Source: Clostridiales bacterium (lineage in GTDB: Bacteria > Bacillota > Clostridia > Christensenellales > Aristaeellaceae). From it: a stretch of DNA of 47,086 nucleotides. Below, in pieces: positions 1,167-10,508 of this stretch. A program made the position numbers and the translations under genes. The DNA lies in assembly GCA_015056055.1 (NCBI GenBank), contig SVHC01000023.1:1-47086 (forward strand). The letters are read 5' to 3'. Below the pieces are notes generated by a model that saw only the letters and a list, made by a program, of their open reading frames with translations, made no database searches and had not been told where the DNA came from. How positions within the stretch are numbered: the first letter of the stretch is position 1; the number at the start of each line of letters is the position of its first letter.

Positions 1167-2504
1167 TTACCAGTAATGGTATCGATTCCTCTTTCCTGCC
1201 AGAAACAGTGCCGTCAAAACCACCGCCATAAACTCGGCAACAATGATGGACATCCATACGCCGTTGATTTCAAAAATCAGCGGCAAAAGCATAACCGATG
1301 CAGCCTGGAACACCAGCGTACGCAGGAAGGAAATGATGGCAGAGGTCACGCCGTCGTTCAGTGCGGTAAAGAATCCCGAGCCAAAGATCGCAAATCCCAT
1401 GAACACAAATGAAAGCGCAAAAATCCGGAATCCGGATATGGTAAGTTCCAAAAGCTGTGCATCATAGCCCACGAAAATGTTCGCAAGCGGCGCGGCCAGA
1501 ACCTGCGCTACCCCAACCATAAAAACGCCTGCAATTCCCAGCATGATAAGGCTTTTTTTCAGGATGCCTCTCAGCTCGGAAAGGTTCTGCGCGCCGTAGT
1601 TATATCCTACGACGGGCGCCGTGCCGATAGAATAGCCGATGAACGCAGCCGCAAAAATAAAACTCACATACATCATTACGCCGTAAGCCGCAATTCCGTT
1701 TTCGCCGGCATATTTCAGAAGCTGCAGATTATAGAGCATACCCACCACATTCATGGATACGTTGCTCATGAATTCCGAAGAGCCGTTTACGGTTGCCCGC
1801 AGGATCGCCCGTCCGTCAAAATGCGTTTTTCCAAGACGCAGAATGCTATTGTTCTTCCGAAAGAAATAGACCAGCGGAACTCCGCCGCCCACCACCTGGC
1901 TCATTCCTGTTGCAATTGCTGCACCGGGCAATTTCCATTCCTGCGGAAGAAGACCGACAAGCAGCGCATCCAGAATCATGTTCGTAACGCCCGAAGAAAC
2001 CGTCACAATGAGACCCAGCTGCGGCTTTTCCGCCGCCACAAAAAAGCTCTGGAACAAAAGCTGCAGTACATAAAACGGCAAAGCCAGCAAAATGATTCGT
2101 GCATAGACTACGCAATTTTCCAACAGTTTCCCTTCCGCGCCCAGAAGCGCAGCAATCGGCCGGATGAATACGATGCCCAGCACCGCAAACACGATGCCCA
2201 GTGCGAATGCCACATAGGTAAACAGGGAAAAATACCTGTTTGCCTTTTCAGACTCCCCTTCGCCAAAGGTCTTTGCCACGATAGCCGTGCCGCCCGTGCC
2301 GAATATGAACCCCACAGTCGCAACGATCATCAGAAACGGCATGATCAGATTGACCGCCGCAAACGGCGTTTTCCCCGCAAAATTCGAAACGAAGAATCCG
2401 TCCACCACGCCATAGATGGAGGTAAAAATCATCATAGCGACGGACGGCAGCGTAAAGCGTATAAGTTTTTTATAGCCAAAGTGATCCGAAAGCTGTATTT
2501 TCAC
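1167..2504 (-). CDS. MATE family efflux transporter
   Basis: A 445-residue multi-pass membrane protein, the usual MATE length (about 450, 12 helices). It starts with a short cytoplasmic segment and a first helix ending in IYGVVDGFFVSNFAG, the typical opening of the MepA/NorM-like group. The family exports drugs or metabolites using a sodium or proton gradient. The second half repeats the first as expected for the two six-helix bundles. The start is a GTG, with GGGGAG 10 bases upstream. It is a single-gene unit, with the rodA terminator just upstream and its own terminator downstream. The substrate cannot be told from sequence. Confidence 0.93.
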   Translation of the reverse strand: MKIQLSDHFGYKKLIRFTLPSVAMMIFTSIYGVVDGFFVSNFAGKTPFAAVNLIMPFLMIVATVGFIFGTGGTAIVAKTFGEGESEKANRYFSLFTYVAFALGIVFAVLGIVFIRPIAALLGAEGKLLENCVVYARIILLALPFYVLQLLFQSFFVAAEKPQLGLIVTVSSGVTNMILDALLVGLLPQEWKLPGAAIATGMSQVVGGGVPLVYFFRKNNSILRLGKTHFDGRAILRATVNGSSEFMSNVSMNVVGMLYNLQLLKYAGENGIAAYGVMMYVSFIFAAAFIGYSIGTAPVVGYNYGAQNLSELRGILKKSLIMLGIAGVFMVGVAQVLAAPLANIFVGYDAQLLELTISGFRIFALSFVFMGFAIFGSGFFTALNDGVTSAIISFLRTLVFQAASVMLLPLIFEINGVWMSIIVAEFMAVVLTALFLAGKRNRYHYW

Positions 2505-2525
2505 AGTCAGTGTCTCCCCGCATAG

Positions 2526-2567
2526 AAAACTCTCCCGATGTACTCCGCAAAACGCGCTTCGGGAGAG
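2526..2567 (-). terminator. Terminator at the end of the mre-rodA operon
   Basis: CTCTCCCGA (2530-2538) pairs with TCGGGAGAG (2559-2567) over a long loop and is followed on the minus strand by TTTTC. It lies between the rodA stop and the MATE start. Confidence 0.65.
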
Positions 2568-2581
2568 CTTTTCTGTATTTC

Positions 2582-3814
2582 TTAGATCTTTACAGCCTTA
2601 ACCTTGCCTTCCGGCATGCCATGCTGTTTCTGACGCATGATTACGTTTTCGACCAGACCGATACCCAGAATGTTCGTAAGATAACTCGATCCGCCGTAGC
2701 TTACAAACGGCAGCGGTATGCCCGTAACCGGCAGAAGACCGATAACCATGCATATGTTTTCCATGATATGGAACAGCAGCATGCCCACAACGCCGAATAT
2801 GATATAGCTGCCAAACGCATCCTGCATGCGCAGCGCATGGCGCACCATTCGCATAATCAGAAGCAGGTATGCCAGAATCAGCGCACCGCCGCCCACAAAG
2901 CCGAATGCCTCGCACACGACGGCAAAAATCATATCGGTATGGTCGTCGGCGATGTAACCCAGCGAGGCAAAGCTGCCTTCCGATACGAGTCCCTTGCCGA
3001 ACAAGCCGCCCGAACCCAACGCAATCTGTGCGTTTACAACCTGCATTGCGTCATCGGGATAGTTTTCCGGTTCCAGCCAGATCAGGATTCGCGTGAATCG
3101 GAAGTTCTCACCACCGGAATTCATAACGCCCCACAATACTACGATCATCATTGCACCGATCATCAGAATGCCGCCGATGATGCGGAAGTTCGTGCCGGAA
3201 ATCAGAATCAACAGTGCAAAAACGAATGCATATACCAGTGCGGTACCTACGTCCGGCTGCAGAACGATCAGGATCAGGGGCAAGCCTACATAAACCAACA
3301 CCGGAAAAAGTTCTCGCAGAGTGCGGATGGGCTTTTTTCGCATGCTGAACAGTTTTGCCAGCGCGATAATAATTGCGATCTTACCAAATTCGGAAGGCTG
3401 AATACCGCGTTCACCGCCGCCCCACTCAAAGAACGCCTGCATGCCGCCGCGACCTACACGCGCGAACAAAAGAACCGTTACCAGCAGCGCAATGTTTGCC
3501 CAGTAGATAATATTCGCCAGTTCGCCATACAGCCTGTAGCTGAAATAGCACATTGCAGCCATTGCAACCACGCCGACCAGAATCCAAATCAGCTGCAGCC
3601 TGGCATATGTGATCGGGTGCAGCTTAATGGTCTCCATCAGCGTTTCGCCCACACCCGCCGTGGAACTTGCCGTAGCAGCAAAAATCGAAACCACGCCGAA
3701 AAGCGATATTCCCCACACCATAAGCAGAATCGGCCAGTCGATATTGCTCAAAAGGCGTGCTTCGAATTTATTTTCCTGTACATATCGCAGGATTGTTCGA
3801 AATAATTTCCGCAT
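2582..3814 (-). CDS. rodA: RodA/FtsW/SpoVE (SEDS) peptidoglycan glycosyltransferase
   Basis: A 410-residue polytopic protein of the SEDS family, which polymerises lipid II into glycan strands at the membrane. Visible family features are the first helix pair after SNIDWPILLMV, the segment GIQPSEFGKIAIIIALAK (the conserved QPSE-K region), and the C-terminal FHIMENICMVIGLLPVTGIP and SYGGSS segments. Its position, last in a maf-mreBCD-PBP2-minD operon, identifies it as the elongation-type RodA rather than FtsW or SpoVE. Its natural partner is the class B PBP encoded two genes upstream. The ATG follows the minD stop by three bases, which implies translational coupling. Confidence 0.94.
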   Translation of the reverse strand: MRKLFRTILRYVQENKFEARLLSNIDWPILLMVWGISLFGVVSIFAATASSTAGVGETLMETIKLHPITYARLQLIWILVGVVAMAAMCYFSYRLYGELANIIYWANIALLVTVLLFARVGRGGMQAFFEWGGGERGIQPSEFGKIAIIIALAKLFSMRKKPIRTLRELFPVLVYVGLPLILIVLQPDVGTALVYAFVFALLILISGTNFRIIGGILMIGAMMIVVLWGVMNSGGENFRFTRILIWLEPENYPDDAMQVVNAQIALGSGGLFGKGLVSEGSFASLGYIADDHTDMIFAVVCEAFGFVGGGALILAYLLLIMRMVRHALRMQDAFGSYIIFGVVGMLLFHIMENICMVIGLLPVTGIPLPFVSYGGSSYLTNILGIGLVENVIMRQKQHGMPEGKVKAVKI

Positions 3815-3817
3815 TTT

Positions 3818-4591
3818 CTACTCCCTTGAAAACAGCCGGCGAAAAAAGCCTTTCTTTTGTGGATAGACAATCGGCACAGCTGATCCGGTCAGGCGGCGCG
3901 CGATACGCTCAAATGCCTGTCCGGCCGGCGTTTTTTCGTTTACCGGCAAACGTGCCTGTGCAGCCAGCCCTCCGATGGCGGTATCCTCGGGCACGGCGCC
4001 CAGTTCCTCCATTTGCAGAACATCCCTGCAGCGCTCAACCGATACCGGCGCTTTGGCATTCATATGTACATGCGTCACGCGGTTCAGTACCAGAAGAGGC
4101 TTCGCAATTCCTTCGCGTTCCAGGATTCCCTTTACTCTCTCTGCGTCGCGCAGGGAAACCACATCCGGCACAGTCACAAGAATTGCATTGTCCGCCGCGC
4201 AGATGGCATTCTGGAAACCTCGTCCTACGCCCGCAGGTGCATCCAGCAGCACATAGTCAAACTGACGGCGCAATTGGAACACCAGATTTTCCATGCCGGA
4301 ATAGGAAACCGCGCCCGCTTCACGCGTCTGCGCAGCGGGAAGCAGCATAATTCCATCCTGCGTCTTCATCAATGCCTGCTTCAGATCGCAGACATCTTCC
4401 AGCACATCCACAACATCGTAAACGACCTTGTTTTCCAACCCGAAAAGCACATCCTGCGATCTCAGGCCGATATCCATATCCACAAGGCACACGCGCTTGC
4501 CCATCCGTGCAAGCGCCGCGCCTACATTTGCCGCAAGGGTGGATTTACCCACGCCGCCCTTGCCGGAAACCACGGCATATACCGTTGCCAA
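3818..4591 (-). CDS. minD: Septum site-determining ATPase MinD
   Basis: 257 residues. A deviant Walker A motif (SGKGGVGKST, residues 9-18, signature Lys11) opens the protein, as in the MinD/ParA family. DMDIGLRSQDVLFGLENK and LLDAPAGVGRGF are the MinD switch regions. The last dozen residues (KKGFFRRLFSRE) form the basic amphipathic membrane-targeting helix. MinD recruits MinC to membranes away from midcell and so prevents polar division. The start is a TTG nine bases after GGAG; the only nearby ATG is out of frame. In many Clostridia minC precedes and minE follows minD in this operon; here PBP2 and rodA directly flank it. Confidence 0.94.
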   Translation of the reverse strand: MATVYAVVSGKGGVGKSTLAANVGAALARMGKRVCLVDMDIGLRSQDVLFGLENKVVYDVVDVLEDVCDLKQALMKTQDGIMLLPAAQTREAGAVSYSGMENLVFQLRRQFDYVLLDAPAGVGRGFQNAICAADNAILVTVPDVVSLRDAERVKGILEREGIAKPLLVLNRVTHVHMNAKAPVSVERCRDVLQMEELGAVPEDTAIGGLAAQARLPVNEKTPAGQAFERIARRLTGSAVPIVYPQKKGFFRRLFSRE

Positions 4592-4597
4592 TTTGCA

Positions 4598-7057
4598 TCA
4601 CTCCGCAATCGTGTAATCCACCTGCACTGCCTTGCCTTCCTCCAGCTTGAGGTTGTCAAGATAGTATTCAAGAGTGTACTTTGCCGCCTGAGCAACGCGC
4701 GAACCGGAATATCCGTTCTGCACGTATACCACGACGACGATCTTCGGGTCTTCCGCCGGGGCGTATGCCACCAGCCAGCCGTTGTTTTCCACGTCGAGTT
4801 CGGTACGCTGCGAGGTACCGGTTTTTGCACCGACCTTGTATTTGCAGTTGGCAAATACCTCTGCTGCGGTACCGTCGTTTTCCGTGCTGGTAACCTGCTC
4901 CATGCCTTCGCGGATCGCAGCAAAATAGGCATACTCCGTCGAAATGCGGTTTGCCACAACCGGCTGCTTATCAATAATAACGGTGCCGTCGGATGCGATG
5001 ATCTTATCAATAATCTGCGCATCGTATACGGTGCCGTTGTTCACGATAGCGGAAACATACCGCGCTACGGCGATGGGAGATACCTGCGTGATGGACTGGC
5101 CTATAGCCGCCATGATGGTTTCGTTGCTCGTCCATCTCAGGTCGTTGAGATAACTGAAGAATTCGTTGACGAGGTAGTTCTGGCTGATGTACGAAGAAGG
5201 AATGTCCATATCGTACAGGAGAACCTCGCGGATGGCCGGCGGCCATACCTGGTCCTTCAGACCTTCGATCTCAACTACCTTCAGGATCTTCAAGGTAGCA
5301 TCATTCAAACGATCGGGATCGTATTCGATATTGCGCGCAATACCGATCTCTTTCAGTCGGTTGTAGATAACGTTGTATGCGATTCGGGGCTTATCCGTGT
5401 ACTGCTCTTTCATGGTCAGCGTGGAATCGTACAGCGTGCTCTGGTTGCCGATAAAGGAGGTCGTTTCGCCGGGGAGCTCGATATTTGTCCTGGAGGTCAA
5501 TCCCAGCGCAGCCCCCCACTTGGTAAGATTCGCGCTGCCAAGGCGTTCACCGACAGTGTAGAAGAAATAGTTGCACGAATTCTTCAATCCCTCTACGATC
5601 GTCTGATCCGCATGCTGGGCAATGTTCCTGCTGCTGATCCAGCAGCGCGGTTTATGCACGGTATCGGTACCTTCGTATTCGCCCGCATCGGTGATCATTT
5701 CATCCAGCGTGAGCACACCCTCTGCAAGCGCGCCGAGACCGGTGACCATTTTGAAAATGGAACCCGGGGAGTCCTTTGCACCGATAGCACGGTTAAACAT
5801 GGGATTGCGCTCGTCATAGATAATCTCTGTCCAGGAACCCAGATCAATGGTTCCTTCAAACAGGGAAAGATCATATGTGGGATGACTTGCCATCGCAAGA
5901 ACACGGCCTGTGTACGGGTCCATGGCCACGATTGCGCCGGTTCGGGCAAGCTGCATTTCAATGTTTTTCTCGATATAGCGGTTCAGCGTGGTACGATTGG
6001 TCTTCTGCCAGTTTTCATCCGCGATCATCTTGAGCTGCTCATTGTAAATCTTGGTAATGATTCGCTCCAGATACTGCTCAACCGCCGCCTGCAATTTGGT
6101 ATCAATGGTCAGAACGATGGAGTTGCCGTCCGTAGGCGCACGATAGGCAAGTTCACGCACAGCCTTGCCTCGCGTATCGATTTCCACATATTTCTGACCC
6201 TGGCGGTATTCAATGTATGGAGAAAGCTGATCCTCCATGGAAAGCTCGATGCCGCTGGCGCCGACGGTTGCATCGTTCGGATAGCCTTTGGCAAGATACT
6301 CTTCAAGGCTTGCGCTGTTGATCTTACTGGTATAGCCGATGGCGTGCGCCGCAAGGGAACCCTGCGGGTAGACGCGCGTATAGCTTTCCAGTACAGAAAA
6401 GCCAATCAGTTCATCCGAGCGTGCCTCGATTTCGGATATCGTCTGGAAATCTACATCGGAAGCAATCGTAACCGGGCTAGACGTAAAGTTCGTCATTCGG
6501 GATGCCTGCCAGATAGCCAGCACCTTGACCTTCATTTCCTCGGAAAGTTCCTCCGGAATCGCATAGTTTGTGCACAGGATGTCAAACAGTTCTTCTTCCG
6601 GTTCGGTACGCAGCATGAAGTTGCTGCGCCACTGGCTGATTCGCCGCTGATTTGCACTTTCCGTGGCTGCGCCGGTTTGGAATCTCCATTTCCCGTCCTC
6701 ATCCTTCGCAAGCCAGAAATCAGTAATAGTCGATTTACCGTTCGATTCAATCAGCTCAATCGCGCTGATGATCGACTGCGTATATTCCGCGCGCGCTTCG
6801 GCGGACGTGCGCGACGGGTCGCGATAGAACTGGATATCAAAACTTTCCCGGTCATAGGCCAGCGGAATCATATTCACGTCGTAAATCGTTCCGCGCTTTC
6901 CGGTTTCGATAATGGTTTTGGTCGATTTTGTTTCGGCTCTGCTTGCATAAGAGTCCCGATTCAAAAGCTGCATAAAGCCAAGGCGCGCAAACATCGCGCC
7001 GAATACCAGAAACAGCAGAATGCAAAACAGCACACATCTGCCTCTCCTCGGTTTCAT
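4598..7057 (-). CDS. mrdA: Penicillin-binding protein 2 (elongation-type transpeptidase)
   Basis: 819 residues: one N-terminal membrane anchor (about 8-29), a PBP dimerisation/pedestal domain, and a C-terminal transpeptidase. The active-site motifs are present: SxxK as SIFK (Ser433, Lys436), SxN as SCN (494-496) and KTGT near the C-terminus. The enzyme cross-links peptidoglycan outside the membrane and works with RodA and MreC in the elongasome. It is longer than E. coli PBP2 (about 630) because of inserts in the pedestal and in the stretch between about 320 and 375; large elongation PBPs of this kind are known in Clostridia. Its stop lies 6 bases before the minD start. Confidence 0.93.
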   Translation of the reverse strand: MKPRRGRCVLFCILLFLVFGAMFARLGFMQLLNRDSYASRAETKSTKTIIETGKRGTIYDVNMIPLAYDRESFDIQFYRDPSRTSAEARAEYTQSIISAIELIESNGKSTITDFWLAKDEDGKWRFQTGAATESANQRRISQWRSNFMLRTEPEEELFDILCTNYAIPEELSEEMKVKVLAIWQASRMTNFTSSPVTIASDVDFQTISEIEARSDELIGFSVLESYTRVYPQGSLAAHAIGYTSKINSASLEEYLAKGYPNDATVGASGIELSMEDQLSPYIEYRQGQKYVEIDTRGKAVRELAYRAPTDGNSIVLTIDTKLQAAVEQYLERIITKIYNEQLKMIADENWQKTNRTTLNRYIEKNIEMQLARTGAIVAMDPYTGRVLAMASHPTYDLSLFEGTIDLGSWTEIIYDERNPMFNRAIGAKDSPGSIFKMVTGLGALAEGVLTLDEMITDAGEYEGTDTVHKPRCWISSRNIAQHADQTIVEGLKNSCNYFFYTVGERLGSANLTKWGAALGLTSRTNIELPGETTSFIGNQSTLYDSTLTMKEQYTDKPRIAYNVIYNRLKEIGIARNIEYDPDRLNDATLKILKVVEIEGLKDQVWPPAIREVLLYDMDIPSSYISQNYLVNEFFSYLNDLRWTSNETIMAAIGQSITQVSPIAVARYVSAIVNNGTVYDAQIIDKIIASDGTVIIDKQPVVANRISTEYAYFAAIREGMEQVTSTENDGTAAEVFANCKYKVGAKTGTSQRTELDVENNGWLVAYAPAEDPKIVVVVYVQNGYSGSRVAQAAKYTLEYYLDNLKLEEGKAVQVDYTIAE

Positions 7058-7075
7058 CGCACACTCACCTCCGGT

Positions 7076-7570
7076 CTACCTCACGCTGTAACGTGACACT
7101 TTGGGCTGCAGCCATGCATTAAATATCAGATAGAATACCTGCACAAGCACCGTCTGAATCACTACGCGGATGCCGGCCGGTGCCAGGAGAGCCGCGGAAA
7201 ACGAGCTGGCATACATCGCCAGGTATCCCATCATCACAAGTTCCACCACGAAAAATATGCCCAGAGCGGTCACAACCGTAGTCCACATGTGATTCATAAA
7301 TTTTCGCCCGATAAAACCCGCAGTAAAACCGGACAGCGTGACCAGAATGGTCATCAGTCCGTACGGGTCGTTTACAAGCACGTCAATCATAAGTCCTGCC
7401 ATCAGTCCCAGAAGGGCACCGCGCCGCCTGCCCAGAAGCAGGCCCAGCGCGATTACCGTCACCAGGGAAAACAGCGGGATATATTCACTGCTTGTAAGAA
7501 ACGGGATTACCGAGATATCCAGCATTACCGCAAGGTATACCAGAATCCAGGGAAGGAATCGGCGAAACAA
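7076..7570 (-). CDS. mreD: Rod shape-determining protein MreD
   Basis: 164 residues with about five membrane segments and little hydrophilic sequence, a typical MreD. The short motif GLMAGLMIDVLVNDPYGLMT matches the conserved central region of the family. MreD is an integral membrane component of the elongasome and modulates the MreC-PBP2 interaction. The start is TTG (TTG TTT CGC) with AGGAGG eight bases upstream; no ATG or GTG is available at that distance. It follows mreC after 38 bases and precedes the PBP2 gene by 18. Confidence 0.9.
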   Translation of the reverse strand: MFRRFLPWILVYLAVMLDISVIPFLTSSEYIPLFSLVTVIALGLLLGRRRGALLGLMAGLMIDVLVNDPYGLMTILVTLSGFTAGFIGRKFMNHMWTTVVTALGIFFVVELVMMGYLAMYASSFSAALLAPAGIRVVIQTVLVQVFYLIFNAWLQPKVSRYSVR

Positions 7571-7608
7571 ATCTGTTTCCTCCTTAAAGAGCTATTACTG
7601 TAAAAAGA

Positions 7609-8697
7609 TCAACCCTTTGCCCAGCTTTCCTCAGGCAGCGTCGGTGCAGGCGTCGGAATCGTTTCAGGCGCGGGCGTTGCCGTCGGATAGGACCAGTTCG
7701 GGTTTGCCGTGGGAACCGACGTAGTTCCGGGAACCGGCGTAGGCGAAGGCGTGACCTTCGGCGTTACAATGGGTTTGGGAGACGGCGTCGGAATCGGCTT
7801 GAGAGAATCCGCCGTTTCAAATACGACGCGCAAAACCAGAACCTCTTCGATGTGATAGAAATCCACCGAAGGCTTTACGATGACAGACTTGTCCACCGTA
7901 TCCGTCTGGCGGCTGACCGACGTAATGGTACCGACCTGAATACCCTTCGGGAAAAGCATATCCACACCGGAGGTTACAACCACATCGCCCGGCACAACGG
8001 AGGTAATATTGGGCAGATAATTCATGCGGCACTCATCCCCGGCCGTGGTTTCCACCTGACCGGTAACGACGCCGTTGTCGCGCGTGCGCTGAACCAGGCA
8101 AGCCACGCTTGACGATGCGCTGATGATGGAGCGCACCTTTGCATAGTTCAGACCCACTTCGTACACGCGGCCTACCAGACCGTCCGCCGTGATTACGGCA
8201 TTGTTTACCGATACGCCGTGCAGCGTGCCTTTATTGATCGTGAAGGAATCGAACCAGACGCCCGCATCCTTGGCGATAACCGCCGCATAAACGGGGTCCT
8301 GCGATTCATATCGCTCCGCCACGTCCAAAAGCGCCTTCAGACGGTCATTTTCCTGCATCTCTTCCTCGGCATTCTGAAGCTGAATGCTGAGACTGTCAAT
8401 CTCCATCTGCAGTTCATGATTTTCGACCAGCAGATCATTGTAGTCCTGCCGATTCTGGAACCAGCCCTTGATGCGCAGCGTCATCGAGCTGAACAGACCC
8501 TGACCGGGCGTAATGAGGGAACCTGCGGCATTTTCCACAATGGTAACCTGACCGGAGCCGCGCGAAATAACAAACATAATAATCAGCGCAATGCCGACGG
8601 TAATCGCCGCGCCGATGATCCACCGCATAATGCGGCGGCTTCTGGACACCGGCGACGCAGTTCTGCGTCTGGCAGCGTAACGTGTCTTTCGGGCCAT
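7609..8697 (-). CDS. mreC: Rod shape-determining protein MreC
   Basis: 362 residues. A basic N-terminus precedes a single membrane helix (about 25-45). A coiled coil at about 85-125 follows, then the two small beta-barrel domains of MreC (about 130-295). MreC is the bitopic scaffold that activates PBP2 outside the membrane. After the barrel domains comes a tail of some 60 residues made of Pro, Thr and Ser repeats (PTPSPKP, VTPSPTPVPG, TATPAPE), absent from most MreC proteins and probably extracellular and disordered. The ATG follows mreB by 17 bases. Confidence 0.93.
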   Translation of the reverse strand: MARKTRYAARRRTASPVSRSRRIMRWIIGAAITVGIALIIMFVISRGSGQVTIVENAAGSLITPGQGLFSSMTLRIKGWFQNRQDYNDLLVENHELQMEIDSLSIQLQNAEEEMQENDRLKALLDVAERYESQDPVYAAVIAKDAGVWFDSFTINKGTLHGVSVNNAVITADGLVGRVYEVGLNYAKVRSIISASSSVACLVQRTRDNGVVTGQVETTAGDECRMNYLPNITSVVPGDVVVTSGVDMLFPKGIQVGTITSVSRQTDTVDKSVIVKPSVDFYHIEEVLVLRVVFETADSLKPIPTPSPKPIVTPKVTPSPTPVPGTTSVPTANPNWSYPTATPAPETIPTPAPTLPEESWAKG

Positions 8698-8714
8698 CGT
8701 TCGTATCCCCTATC

Positions 8715-9746
8715 TTATGCTTCGAATAATGCGCCGGTCGCATTGAGTCGCGCAATCACGCGTTCCTCCGCGCTGATCATAGCCAGACCGATGGCGACGT
8801 CATCCTGCGGATTTTCGCTTACCATTACCGGAATGGAAGTTTCCTTGCGCAGCCGTTTATCCAGACCCACGAGCAGCGCGCCGCCGCCGGAGAGATGAAT
8901 GCCCGTTTCCATAATATCGCCGGCCAGCTCAGCAGGCGTGTTTGCAAGAGCATCCCGAATCGCATCCACCAGATTTTCAATCGGCGTTTCCAATGCGTGA
9001 TAAATATCCTTTGCGTTGATCTCCACGGATACAGGACGACCGTTTTCCGTGCTGCGGCCTTTTACGCGCACAATCGTTTCGTCCTTCGGTTCAATGGCGC
9101 TTCCCAGATCCCGTTTCAGATCCTCCGCCGTACGTGCGCCCACAATTACGCCCTTTTCGCGGCGCAGATAGCGCTGAATCGCCTCGTCAAAAGCATTGCC
9201 GCCCACACGCATGGAACGTGCCGCCACGATGCCGTTCATCGAAAGCACGCTGATTTCCGTGGTTGAACTGCCCAGAACAATCTGCATTACGCCGCGGGGC
9301 TCATGGAATTCCACGCCCGCGCCCACAGCCGCCGCCACAGGCGTTTTTACCGCAATGGTGCGCCGTGCGCCGGTTCCGGCAGCAGCACGCATCAATGCCG
9401 CGCGCTCCACCTTCGTTGCGCCCGGCGAAATGGGCAGCGCCACGCGCGCCTTGTCCATCACGCGCCGACGACCGACAGCCTTTTCCGCCAGTTCCGTCAT
9501 CAAAAGCGTTGCCATATCCGTATCCGCCACCGCGCCGTCCATAATCGGCGCGATCAGGCAGCTTTCCTCATCCGTACGTCCCAGAAGCGATTTTGCATCG
9601 TCACCCAGGGCGATAACTTCCTTTTCATCCCGTTCGAGCACCAGCACATAGGTTGCCTCGCGCAGCGCGACACCCTGCCCCGGGAAGCATATCGCCGTAC
9701 TGGCCGAGCCGAGATCGATTCCCAGATTTCCACCTGCAATTGCCAT
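8715..9746 (-). CDS. mreB: MreB/Mbl-family actin-like protein with degenerate ATPase site
   Basis: 343 residues, the normal MreB length, with end-to-end MreB similarity: LGIDLGSASTAI (phosphate 1, 8-19), GRTDEESCLIAPIMDGAVAD, ALPISPGATKVER, VGGNAFDEAI and the adenosine loop LSGGGALL. It sits first in mreBCD, so by context it is the elongasome filament protein. Two catalytic elements are changed. The usual EEP of the hydrolytic glutamate is KTP (134-136), and the phosphate-2 motif DIGGGTTE is VLGSSTTE (157-164), so both acidic residues are gone. From established actin/MreB biochemistry this should abolish or strongly weaken ATP hydrolysis; that is an inference. A second, normal MreB or Mbl may exist elsewhere. 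Confidence 0.9.
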   Translation of the reverse strand: MAIAGGNLGIDLGSASTAICFPGQGVALREATYVLVLERDEKEVIALGDDAKSLLGRTDEESCLIAPIMDGAVADTDMATLLMTELAEKAVGRRRVMDKARVALPISPGATKVERAALMRAAAGTGARRTIAVKTPVAAAVGAGVEFHEPRGVMQIVLGSSTTEISVLSMNGIVAARSMRVGGNAFDEAIQRYLRREKGVIVGARTAEDLKRDLGSAIEPKDETIVRVKGRSTENGRPVSVEINAKDIYHALETPIENLVDAIRDALANTPAELAGDIMETGIHLSGGGALLVGLDKRLRKETSIPVMVSENPQDDVAIGLAMISAEERVIARLNATGALFEA

Positions 9747-9765: not shown

Positions 9766-10332
9766 CTATTTTTTATCCGTCGTTATATTCGCCAGCATTT
9801 CCGCAACCGTATCGACCGGAAAGCCCACTACATTTTCGTAAGAACCGTTGAACCCCTCAATAAAAGCGGATGCAAGACCCTGAATCGCATATGCGCCGGC
9901 CTTGTCATAGGGTTCATCCGTATCGAGATATGTTTCAATCTCTTCATCGGTTAATGGACGAAAAACCACGCCTGTCCGTTCCACGCGTGCCTGCTCACCG
10001 TCCGCATCAATCACGCACACACCGGTATATACATCATGCTCACGACCCGAAAGCGCCTGAAGCATCCTTTTGGCATCCGCGCGGTCCTTCGGCTTGCCGA
10101 GTGCGCATCCGTCAATTACTACAAGTGTGTCCGCACCGATTACAACGGCATCCTGCGCCATGGAAAAAACCGCTCGCGCCTTGCGGCAGGCAATCTCACG
10201 CACGCCATCCTGCGGCGCGCCATCAAAAGATTCATCCACATCCGATACCAATATATCAAATCTTACACCCATTTTCCCAAGCAGTTCCCTGCGTCTGGGA
10301 GAGGCGGAAGCTAGAACTATCCTCTTATCCAA
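9766..10332 (-). CDS. maf: Maf family nucleotide pyrophosphatase
   Basis: About 188 residues. The N-terminus DKRIVLASASPRRRELLGKM carries the family signature SxSPRR. VIGADTLVVIDG, GKPKDRADAKRML and the later KAGAYAIQGLASAFIEGFNGSYENVVGFP complete the Maf fold. Maf proteins hydrolyse canonical and modified NTPs to NMP and pyrophosphate, and overproduction blocks septation; the mre linkage is common. Two starts are possible: an ATG at 10338 touching the Shine-Dalgarno (GGAGGG-ATG) and a TTG two codons later, seven bases after GGAGG. The TTG is preferred on spacing. The gene opens the elongation operon and has its own promoter. Confidence 0.93.
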   Translation of the reverse strand: MDKRIVLASASPRRRELLGKMGVRFDILVSDVDESFDGAPQDGVREIACRKARAVFSMAQDAVVIGADTLVVIDGCALGKPKDRADAKRMLQALSGREHDVYTGVCVIDADGEQARVERTGVVFRPLTDEEIETYLDTDEPYDKAGAYAIQGLASAFIEGFNGSYENVVGFPVDTVAEMLANITTDKK

Positions 10333-10351
10333 GTACATCCCTCCATTCTTC

Positions 10352-10380
10352 ATTATAGCACAATACATGGATACCGTAAA
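10352..10380 (-). promoter_or_regulatory. Promoter of the maf-mre operon
   Basis: On the minus strand TTTACG, 17 bases, TATAAT, with TGC directly before the -10 (extended -10). The transcript would begin near 10345, giving an almost leaderless mRNA that starts at the ribosome binding site of maf. Confidence 0.75.
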
Positions 10381-10508
10381 GCACACCAAATTAAATCGTA
10401 CGGAATTTGTCACGATTTTACAGCGTCTGCGATGGTCGCGGACAATCCGTGTTTATTTTAAGTTTGATGGTATTTTCAAACAATCAACCAAAATATGCCG
10501 ATTTGCAA

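Follow-up and report, generated by a model that had tools for sequence, protein, structure and literature searches.

The window, by which we mean the whole stretch of 47,086 nucleotides analysed (contig SVHC01000023.1 of a Clostridiales bacterium of the Aristaeellaceae), carries a complete mre operon. The gene order is maf-mreB-mreC-mreD-PBP2-minD-like-rodA, all on the minus strand, and every operon partner of mreB was found by Pfam searches (Table 1), as the first-pass annotation had claimed. An mre operon is presumably also present in G. stearothermophilus, as in other bacteria. The window mreB is flanked by maf and mreC and not by spoIIID; it thus sits in a maf-mreBCD operon instead of the neighbourhood of Mbl, which we take to be the MreB paralogue linked to spoIIID. 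The first-pass annotation named no strand for mreB; the plus strand of 8715-9746 contains stops. A 1027-aa open frame lies antisense to PBP2 (4013-7096, plus strand), most likely a composition artefact. The MreC encoded at 7609-8697 (minus strand) ends in a Pro/Thr/Ser-rich C-terminal tail of about 70 residues. The genome encodes three SEDS proteins, and a search of it for RodZ returned a single HTH_25 match, under the cut-off.

Table 1. Features of the mre operon in the window, and the operon without mreB in family genome G043
Feature	Position	Strand	Description
rodA (SEDS protein)	2582..3814	minus	Pfam FTSW_RODA_SPOVE 5.9e-76; name rodA inferred from operon
minD-like ATPase	3818..4591	minus	Pfam ParA/AAA_31/CbiA; minD a putative name
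PBP2/mrdA-type class B penicillin-binding protein	4598..7057	minus	Pfam Transpeptidase 1.4e-52, PBP_dimer 2e-30; named PBP2 from operon context
mreD	7076..7570	minus	Pfam MreD 1.2e-07
mreC	7609..8697	minus	Pfam MreC 2.6e-45
mreB	8715..9746	minus	343 aa; without catalytic Glu and phosphate-2 Asp; Pfam MreB_Mbl 7.8e-90
mreB codons 157-164	9255..9278	minus	VLGSSTTE for DIGGGTTE; V157 at position of Mg-coordinating Asp; T162 and E164 kept
mreB codons 134-136	9339..9347	minus	KTP for EEP; T135 at position of catalytic Glu (E140 of CcMreB); coordinates from translation
mreB codons 93-95 (RRR)	9462..9470	minus	Loop aligning with G. stearothermophilus MreB membrane loop
mreB codon 11	9714..9716	minus	Phosphate-1 Asp (D11) kept
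maf	9766..10413	minus	Pfam Maf 2.3e-64; upstream of mreB
G043 operon without mreB	L269 (G043:C20:31500-41500), 2038-9299		maf-mreC-mreD-PBP2-minD-like-rodA

The MreB product matches Pfam PF06723 (MreB_Mbl) over residues 7-328, nearly its full length, and the best solved MreB at 1.1e-70. It scores 308.6 bits with NCBIfam NF010539, above the cut-off of 293, and 279.1 bits with TIGR00904, below the cut-off of 365.75. Translation and alignment to solved MreBs bore out the two altered motifs read in the first pass: the paired Glu of EEP align with K134 and T135, and the Asp of DIGGG aligns with V157. Of that pair, the second Glu is the catalytic one (E140 in C. crescentus MreB, E134 in S. citri MreB5; excerpts of PMC9597168 and PMC9195046), and therefore T135 is the key change. 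The lost phosphate-2 Asp is a ligand of Mg waters. According to passages of PMC9195046, three acids of S. citri MreB5 (Asp12, Glu134 and Asp156) hold these waters, and the window MreB retains only the counterpart of the first, D11. The loss claimed earlier thus stands for the catalytic Glu and the phosphate-2 Asp; D11, T162 and E164 remain. The last two form the T-X-[D/E] pair, proposed in the sections seen of PMC9597168 to activate water or remove its proton. The Gly motif of the adenosine site reads LSGGGALL. The alignment thus shows a protein from which two acids are gone and in which the other nucleotide-site landmarks are retained. An AlphaFold2 model built on a 4-row alignment had a mean pLDDT of 57.6, too poor for use.

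Could the gene be a regulatory paralogue of a second, canonical MreB, as had been suggested? The window's genome (95% complete, 80 contigs) gave three matches over the family cut-off: the window MreB, an Mbl-type copy on contig 70, and a match in a 611-aa frame that we take to be DnaK. The Mbl-type copy adjoins spoIIID and has RQD where EEP is expected and DVSAGSMS in place of DIGGGTTE, so that a second copy exists without intact motifs. No canonical MreB with the catalytic Glu was found by the family-profile search of this 95% complete genome; with 80 contigs, a further copy may have been missed. The suggested regulatory paralogue of a canonical MreB is therefore not supported. Family-wide, 63 of the 67 genomes with at least two MreB copies read have no copy with Glu. 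The same holds for both copies in all 29 genomes, among the 35 of the subclade described below, for which two copies were read, which speaks against a canonical partner there too. Five family genomes beyond that subclade (G026, G033, G035, G096 and G116) keep Glu in the second copy. Nor did a canonical second MreB appear in the 100% complete genome G006 or the 2-contig genome G091: both copies read are Glu-less in each. Further matches in these two genomes, at most 83.8 bits and in frames of at least 479 aa where given, lie outside the two copies counted.

We surveyed the motifs in 121 genomes of the window's family, 50 of which were searched again with the Pfam family, and fetched the loci. 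The alignment, cleared of duplicates, comprised 179 family sequences representing 112 genomes. Rows were removed if identical over residues 41-200 of the frame or if the frame was at least 600 aa (over 550 in the alignment of other families); L008, which had no match by that method, was also dropped. Thus 112 of the 121 genomes are represented by family-labelled rows, the others having no MreB match, being unfetched or, for G040, standing under another label (L009). By their neighbouring genes, 104 of the 179 belong to an mre operon, each from a different genome and together from 45 genera; 24 adjoin spoIIID, and 51 are unassigned.

The catalytic Glu is kept in none of the 104 operon MreBs. 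Its position holds Lys in 53, Ser in 21, Thr in 10, Ala in 7, Gln in 5, Gly in 4, His in 3 and Asn in 1. By contrast, the phosphate-1 Asp and an acid at the CcMreB-E169 position (E164 in the window MreB) are each kept in 104/104, the Thr of T-X-[D/E] in 86 and the phosphate-2 Asp in 70. Three operon MreBs (in G050, G011 and G041) have a profile match split after about residue 223. Each is a single long open frame (402, 514 and 389 aa, respectively), suggesting an insertion in the protein.

The window's subclade, with members outside the tree placed by genus, holds 35 sequences from 16 genera. At the Glu position all 35 carry a small residue (S, T, A, G or N), which in 28 directly follows Lys or Arg. 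The phosphate-2 Asp is lost in 33, and the Thr of T-X-[D/E] is kept in only 21. A congener of the window's genome, G001, reads KST and VLGGSTTE. In the other 69 family operon MreBs (29 genera), Lys stands at the Glu position in 53 and the Asp is kept in 68. An intermediate, RSP with DIGGGTTE, occurs in Candidatus Faecaligallichristensenella faecipullorum, the one named member by which the family was identified. This sequence, which represents G040 and is counted neither in the 104 nor in the 35, has lost the Glu and kept the Asp; its genus was assigned to family CAG-74 of order Christensenellales in an older GTDB release (PMC8035907, in part). Loss of the Glu is therefore a family-wide and apparently stepwise change rather than an oddity of one gene, which the first-pass annotation had missed.

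A quick maximum-likelihood tree of 150 rows was computed with the trait columns omitted and no bootstrap; 47 of its 147 inner branches are weak. Family operon MreBs form one clade (51 rows, SH-aLRT 91) that includes the window MreB, and nested in it is the window's subclade (22 rows, SH-aLRT 100). The Mbl copies sit on a long branch. At least 4 changes of the Glu state and at least 14 of the Asp state are needed on this tree, and all 38 Glu-keeping rows of a 239-row alignment keep the Asp too. The pattern on this one quick tree fits a loss of Glu first and of Asp later.

Outside the family, Glu is kept in 30/30 high-scoring sequences from other families of the same order. In other orders of Clostridia, it is kept in 20/20 control sequences and the phosphate-2 Asp in 19/20, the exception (L290) keeping Glu with Asn at the Asp position. 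These 20 were chosen among the best-scoring matches, operon type and Mbl mixed, and all controls came from high scorers of a canonical-MreB profile, a choice that favours canonical motifs. Set against the 20/20, 0/104 among the family operon MreBs is not a chance result. The best MreB-family E-values in 112 genomes of other orders were at most 1.1e-119 in 106 and at least 1.3e-24 in 6, with none between; there, MreB seems to be either canonical-like or undetected above DnaK-level scores.

Other families of the order also contain divergent MreBs (L239-L264), mostly without the catalytic Glu and often still adjoining maf. In the genomes read, fifteen of these families had only Glu-less MreBs, eleven only Glu-keeping ones, and one was mixed; low-scoring genomes were deliberately selected here, so these counts are not frequencies, and some of the alignments are doubtful (e.g. 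L263, L264). MreC was not found in any of the 15 tested other-family genomes with Glu-less MreB, and that loss therefore looks like a different, deeper reduction. Yet G122, in which both MreB copies read keep Glu, has no MreC either.

We propose, at a probability of roughly 0.58, that the window gene is the lineage's true mre-operon MreB and acts as an ATP-binding scaffold that would hydrolyse ATP very slowly or not at all. The main rival, which we hold to be unlikely, is relaxed constraint: the family would depend little on MreB for shape, so that the ATPase site erodes and the gene does a reduced job and is sometimes lost. Such a loss was seen in G043 (91% complete), where maf is followed directly by mreC, mreD, PBP2, the minD-like gene and rodA, with mreB absent from an otherwise complete operon. 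Profile search found no mreB remnant in that stretch, and the sole MreB-family match elsewhere in the genome is DnaK-like. MreB can therefore probably be lost in the family. The MreC frame of G043 would have a long charged N-terminal extension if a TTG start is used. The missing MreC of the 15 Glu-less genomes in other families would also suit relaxed constraint, but G122 weakens that point.

Rates of substitution speak to the same rival. By Nei-Gojobori (own script) between the window's genome and its congener, dN/dS was 0.17 for mreB, 0.23 for mreC, 0.26 for mreD (118 codons only) and 0.32 for mbl, all of them rough because dS is about 1. For maf and the neighbour of mbl, the ratios of 0.12 and 0.11, respectively, come with dS above 2, near saturation. 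The faster divergence of mbl, like the long branch of the Mbl copies, favours relaxed constraint, but mreB itself evolves under a lower ratio than mreC and is, on this rough estimate, under purifying selection. Together with many conserved residues, this upholds the earlier view of a gene under selection rather than in decay. The loss in the active site is also selective, sparing the phosphate-1 Asp and the E169 acid throughout the family operon MreBs; and among the matches listed, the one with internal stops (G092:C96) is not the operon copy of its genome.

New residues have, moreover, become fixed. Conserved residues were compared among 30 subclade rows, 34 canonical rows and 75 other family rows, sets that differ from the 35/69 split: the 30 include the intermediate L009, six subclade rows (L039, L046, L053, L062, L070 and L088) were left among the other family rows, and the canonical rows include two labelled Ruminococcaceae (L010, L011). 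E209, K212, D188, G288 and G290 (G. stearothermophilus numbers) are present in 30/30 subclade rows, and G289 in 93%. New charges, acidic at 88 and 98 and basic at 95, occur in 30/30 subclade rows versus at most 3% of canonical ones, which counts against relaxed constraint; the bases at 93-94 are not new against canonical MreBs. Residues 88, 95 and 98 fall in the region opposite the G. stearothermophilus MreB membrane loop, a loop whose role is described in parts of PMC10718530.

A further alternative, which we consider improbable, is that useful ATP hydrolysis persists, with the water placed by the T-X-E pair or by new acids at other sites, and that the two losses are thus of little consequence. 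In its favour, the window MreB retains T162 and E164, an acid at the latter position is universal in the family operon MreBs, and proton removal is given to the T-X-[D/E] pair in the passages cited from PMC9597168. Conserved acid gains in the window protein include 88, 98, 213 and 316, among others. The acid at 213 was gained by the family (97% of subclade rows, 81% of other family rows, 6% of canonical rows); it stands two residues from K211 and might lie near the nucleotide. On the other side, the family alignment revealed no conserved replacement acid close in sequence to the lost two, of the three acids that hold the Mg waters according to the excerpts of PMC9195046, two are gone, and the Thr is missing from 14 of the 35 subclade members. 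Finally, an error of sequencing, assembly or binning has almost no probability left: although nearly all assemblies are fragmented, Glu is absent from the operon MreBs of 104 genomes in 45 genera, including the 2-contig G091 and the 3-contig G026, which refutes assembly error as the cause of the Glu loss, and the congener has both motifs altered as well (KST and VLGGSTTE).

Under the preferred reading, a non-hydrolysing or very slowly hydrolysing scaffold, nucleotide would probably still be bound, on the kept D11, E208, K211 and Gly motif; we assume that E208 and K211 serve the nucleotide. With hydrolysis absent or extremely slow, the filament may serve MreCD, PBP2 and RodA as a membrane scaffold that is either long-lived or regulated by exchange. 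We infer that loss of the catalytic Glu came first, in the family ancestor or close to it, with Lys taking its place in most members, and that the subclade may then have acquired a basic residue at the neighbouring position beside a small one at the Glu site, and lost the Mg-binding Asp. In place of Mg, the basic residue may balance the charge of the phosphates, or it may replace the contact of the Glu. If wall synthesis drives filament motion, hydrolysis by MreB would be unneeded for it, and the Glu loss would therefore have been tolerated and then fixed.

A wider proposal is more tentative, and we put it forward as a possibility that we do not favour outright: the whole family would elongate its wall via MreCD-PBP2-RodA on a non-hydrolysing MreB, with nucleotide as a structural cofactor, Lys or Arg in or beside the old catalytic position balancing charge, and turnover governed otherwise. 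If so, hydrolysis would be dispensable for MreB function in nature. As to the scaffold reading itself, the speed of MreB filaments is independent of hydrolysis according to work cited in PMC9195046, but the same paper, in the parts consulted, regards hydrolysis as inevitable for MreB function and points to the defects in localisation and shape that ATPase mutants show in both B. subtilis and C. crescentus. Also against that reading, the absence of mreB from the otherwise intact operon of G043 fits dispensability of the protein, and the kept T162 and E164 might sustain slow hydrolysis.

The canonical MreB of walled Firmicutes, exemplified by G. stearothermophilus (7zpt/8azg; PMC10718530, in part), shares with the window MreB the family, the phosphate-1 Asp, the adenosine-site Gly motif and T-X-E; the window MreB differs in lacking the catalytic Glu and phosphate-2 Asp and in its altered membrane-loop region. 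The closest precedent is SpeMreB3 of Spiroplasma, likewise an MreB occurring in nature whose hydrolysis motif is degenerate. As described in passages of PMC9597168, it forms filaments and releases Pi very slowly, its ATPase activity being among the lowest in the superfamily. Its Glu is replaced by Asp and, in T-X-[D/E], the Thr by Lys and the acid by Ser; the latter two changes are absent in the window MreB. SpeMreB3 works in a wall-less cell beside four other MreBs, whereas the window lineage has a wall-synthesis operon and no canonical MreB that we could find. A natural MreB of low ATPase activity is thus already known, as one of five MreBs and with other residues changed. ScMreB5 E134A lacks the same catalytic Glu but is an engineered single mutant; it still assembles filaments, with impaired organisation and weaker liposome binding (excerpts of PMC9195046). 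The loss described here is natural and family-wide, and in one subclade extends to the Mg-binding Asp.

The literature searched, most subscription journals lying outside it, yielded no walled lineage that has a complete mre operon but lacks any Glu-bearing MreB. MreB together with Christensenellales or Christensenella turned up only in PMC12306168, in passages that do not treat Glu loss. The part that ATP hydrolysis plays in MreB function is unsettled, judging from the parts of PMC9195046 and PMC10718530 that discuss it. A family whose 104 operon MreBs all lack the Glu is a natural experiment on this role, and it offers a graded series, which runs from Glu-keeping MreBs in other families of the order through loss of Glu alone and loss of both acids to absence of mreB itself.
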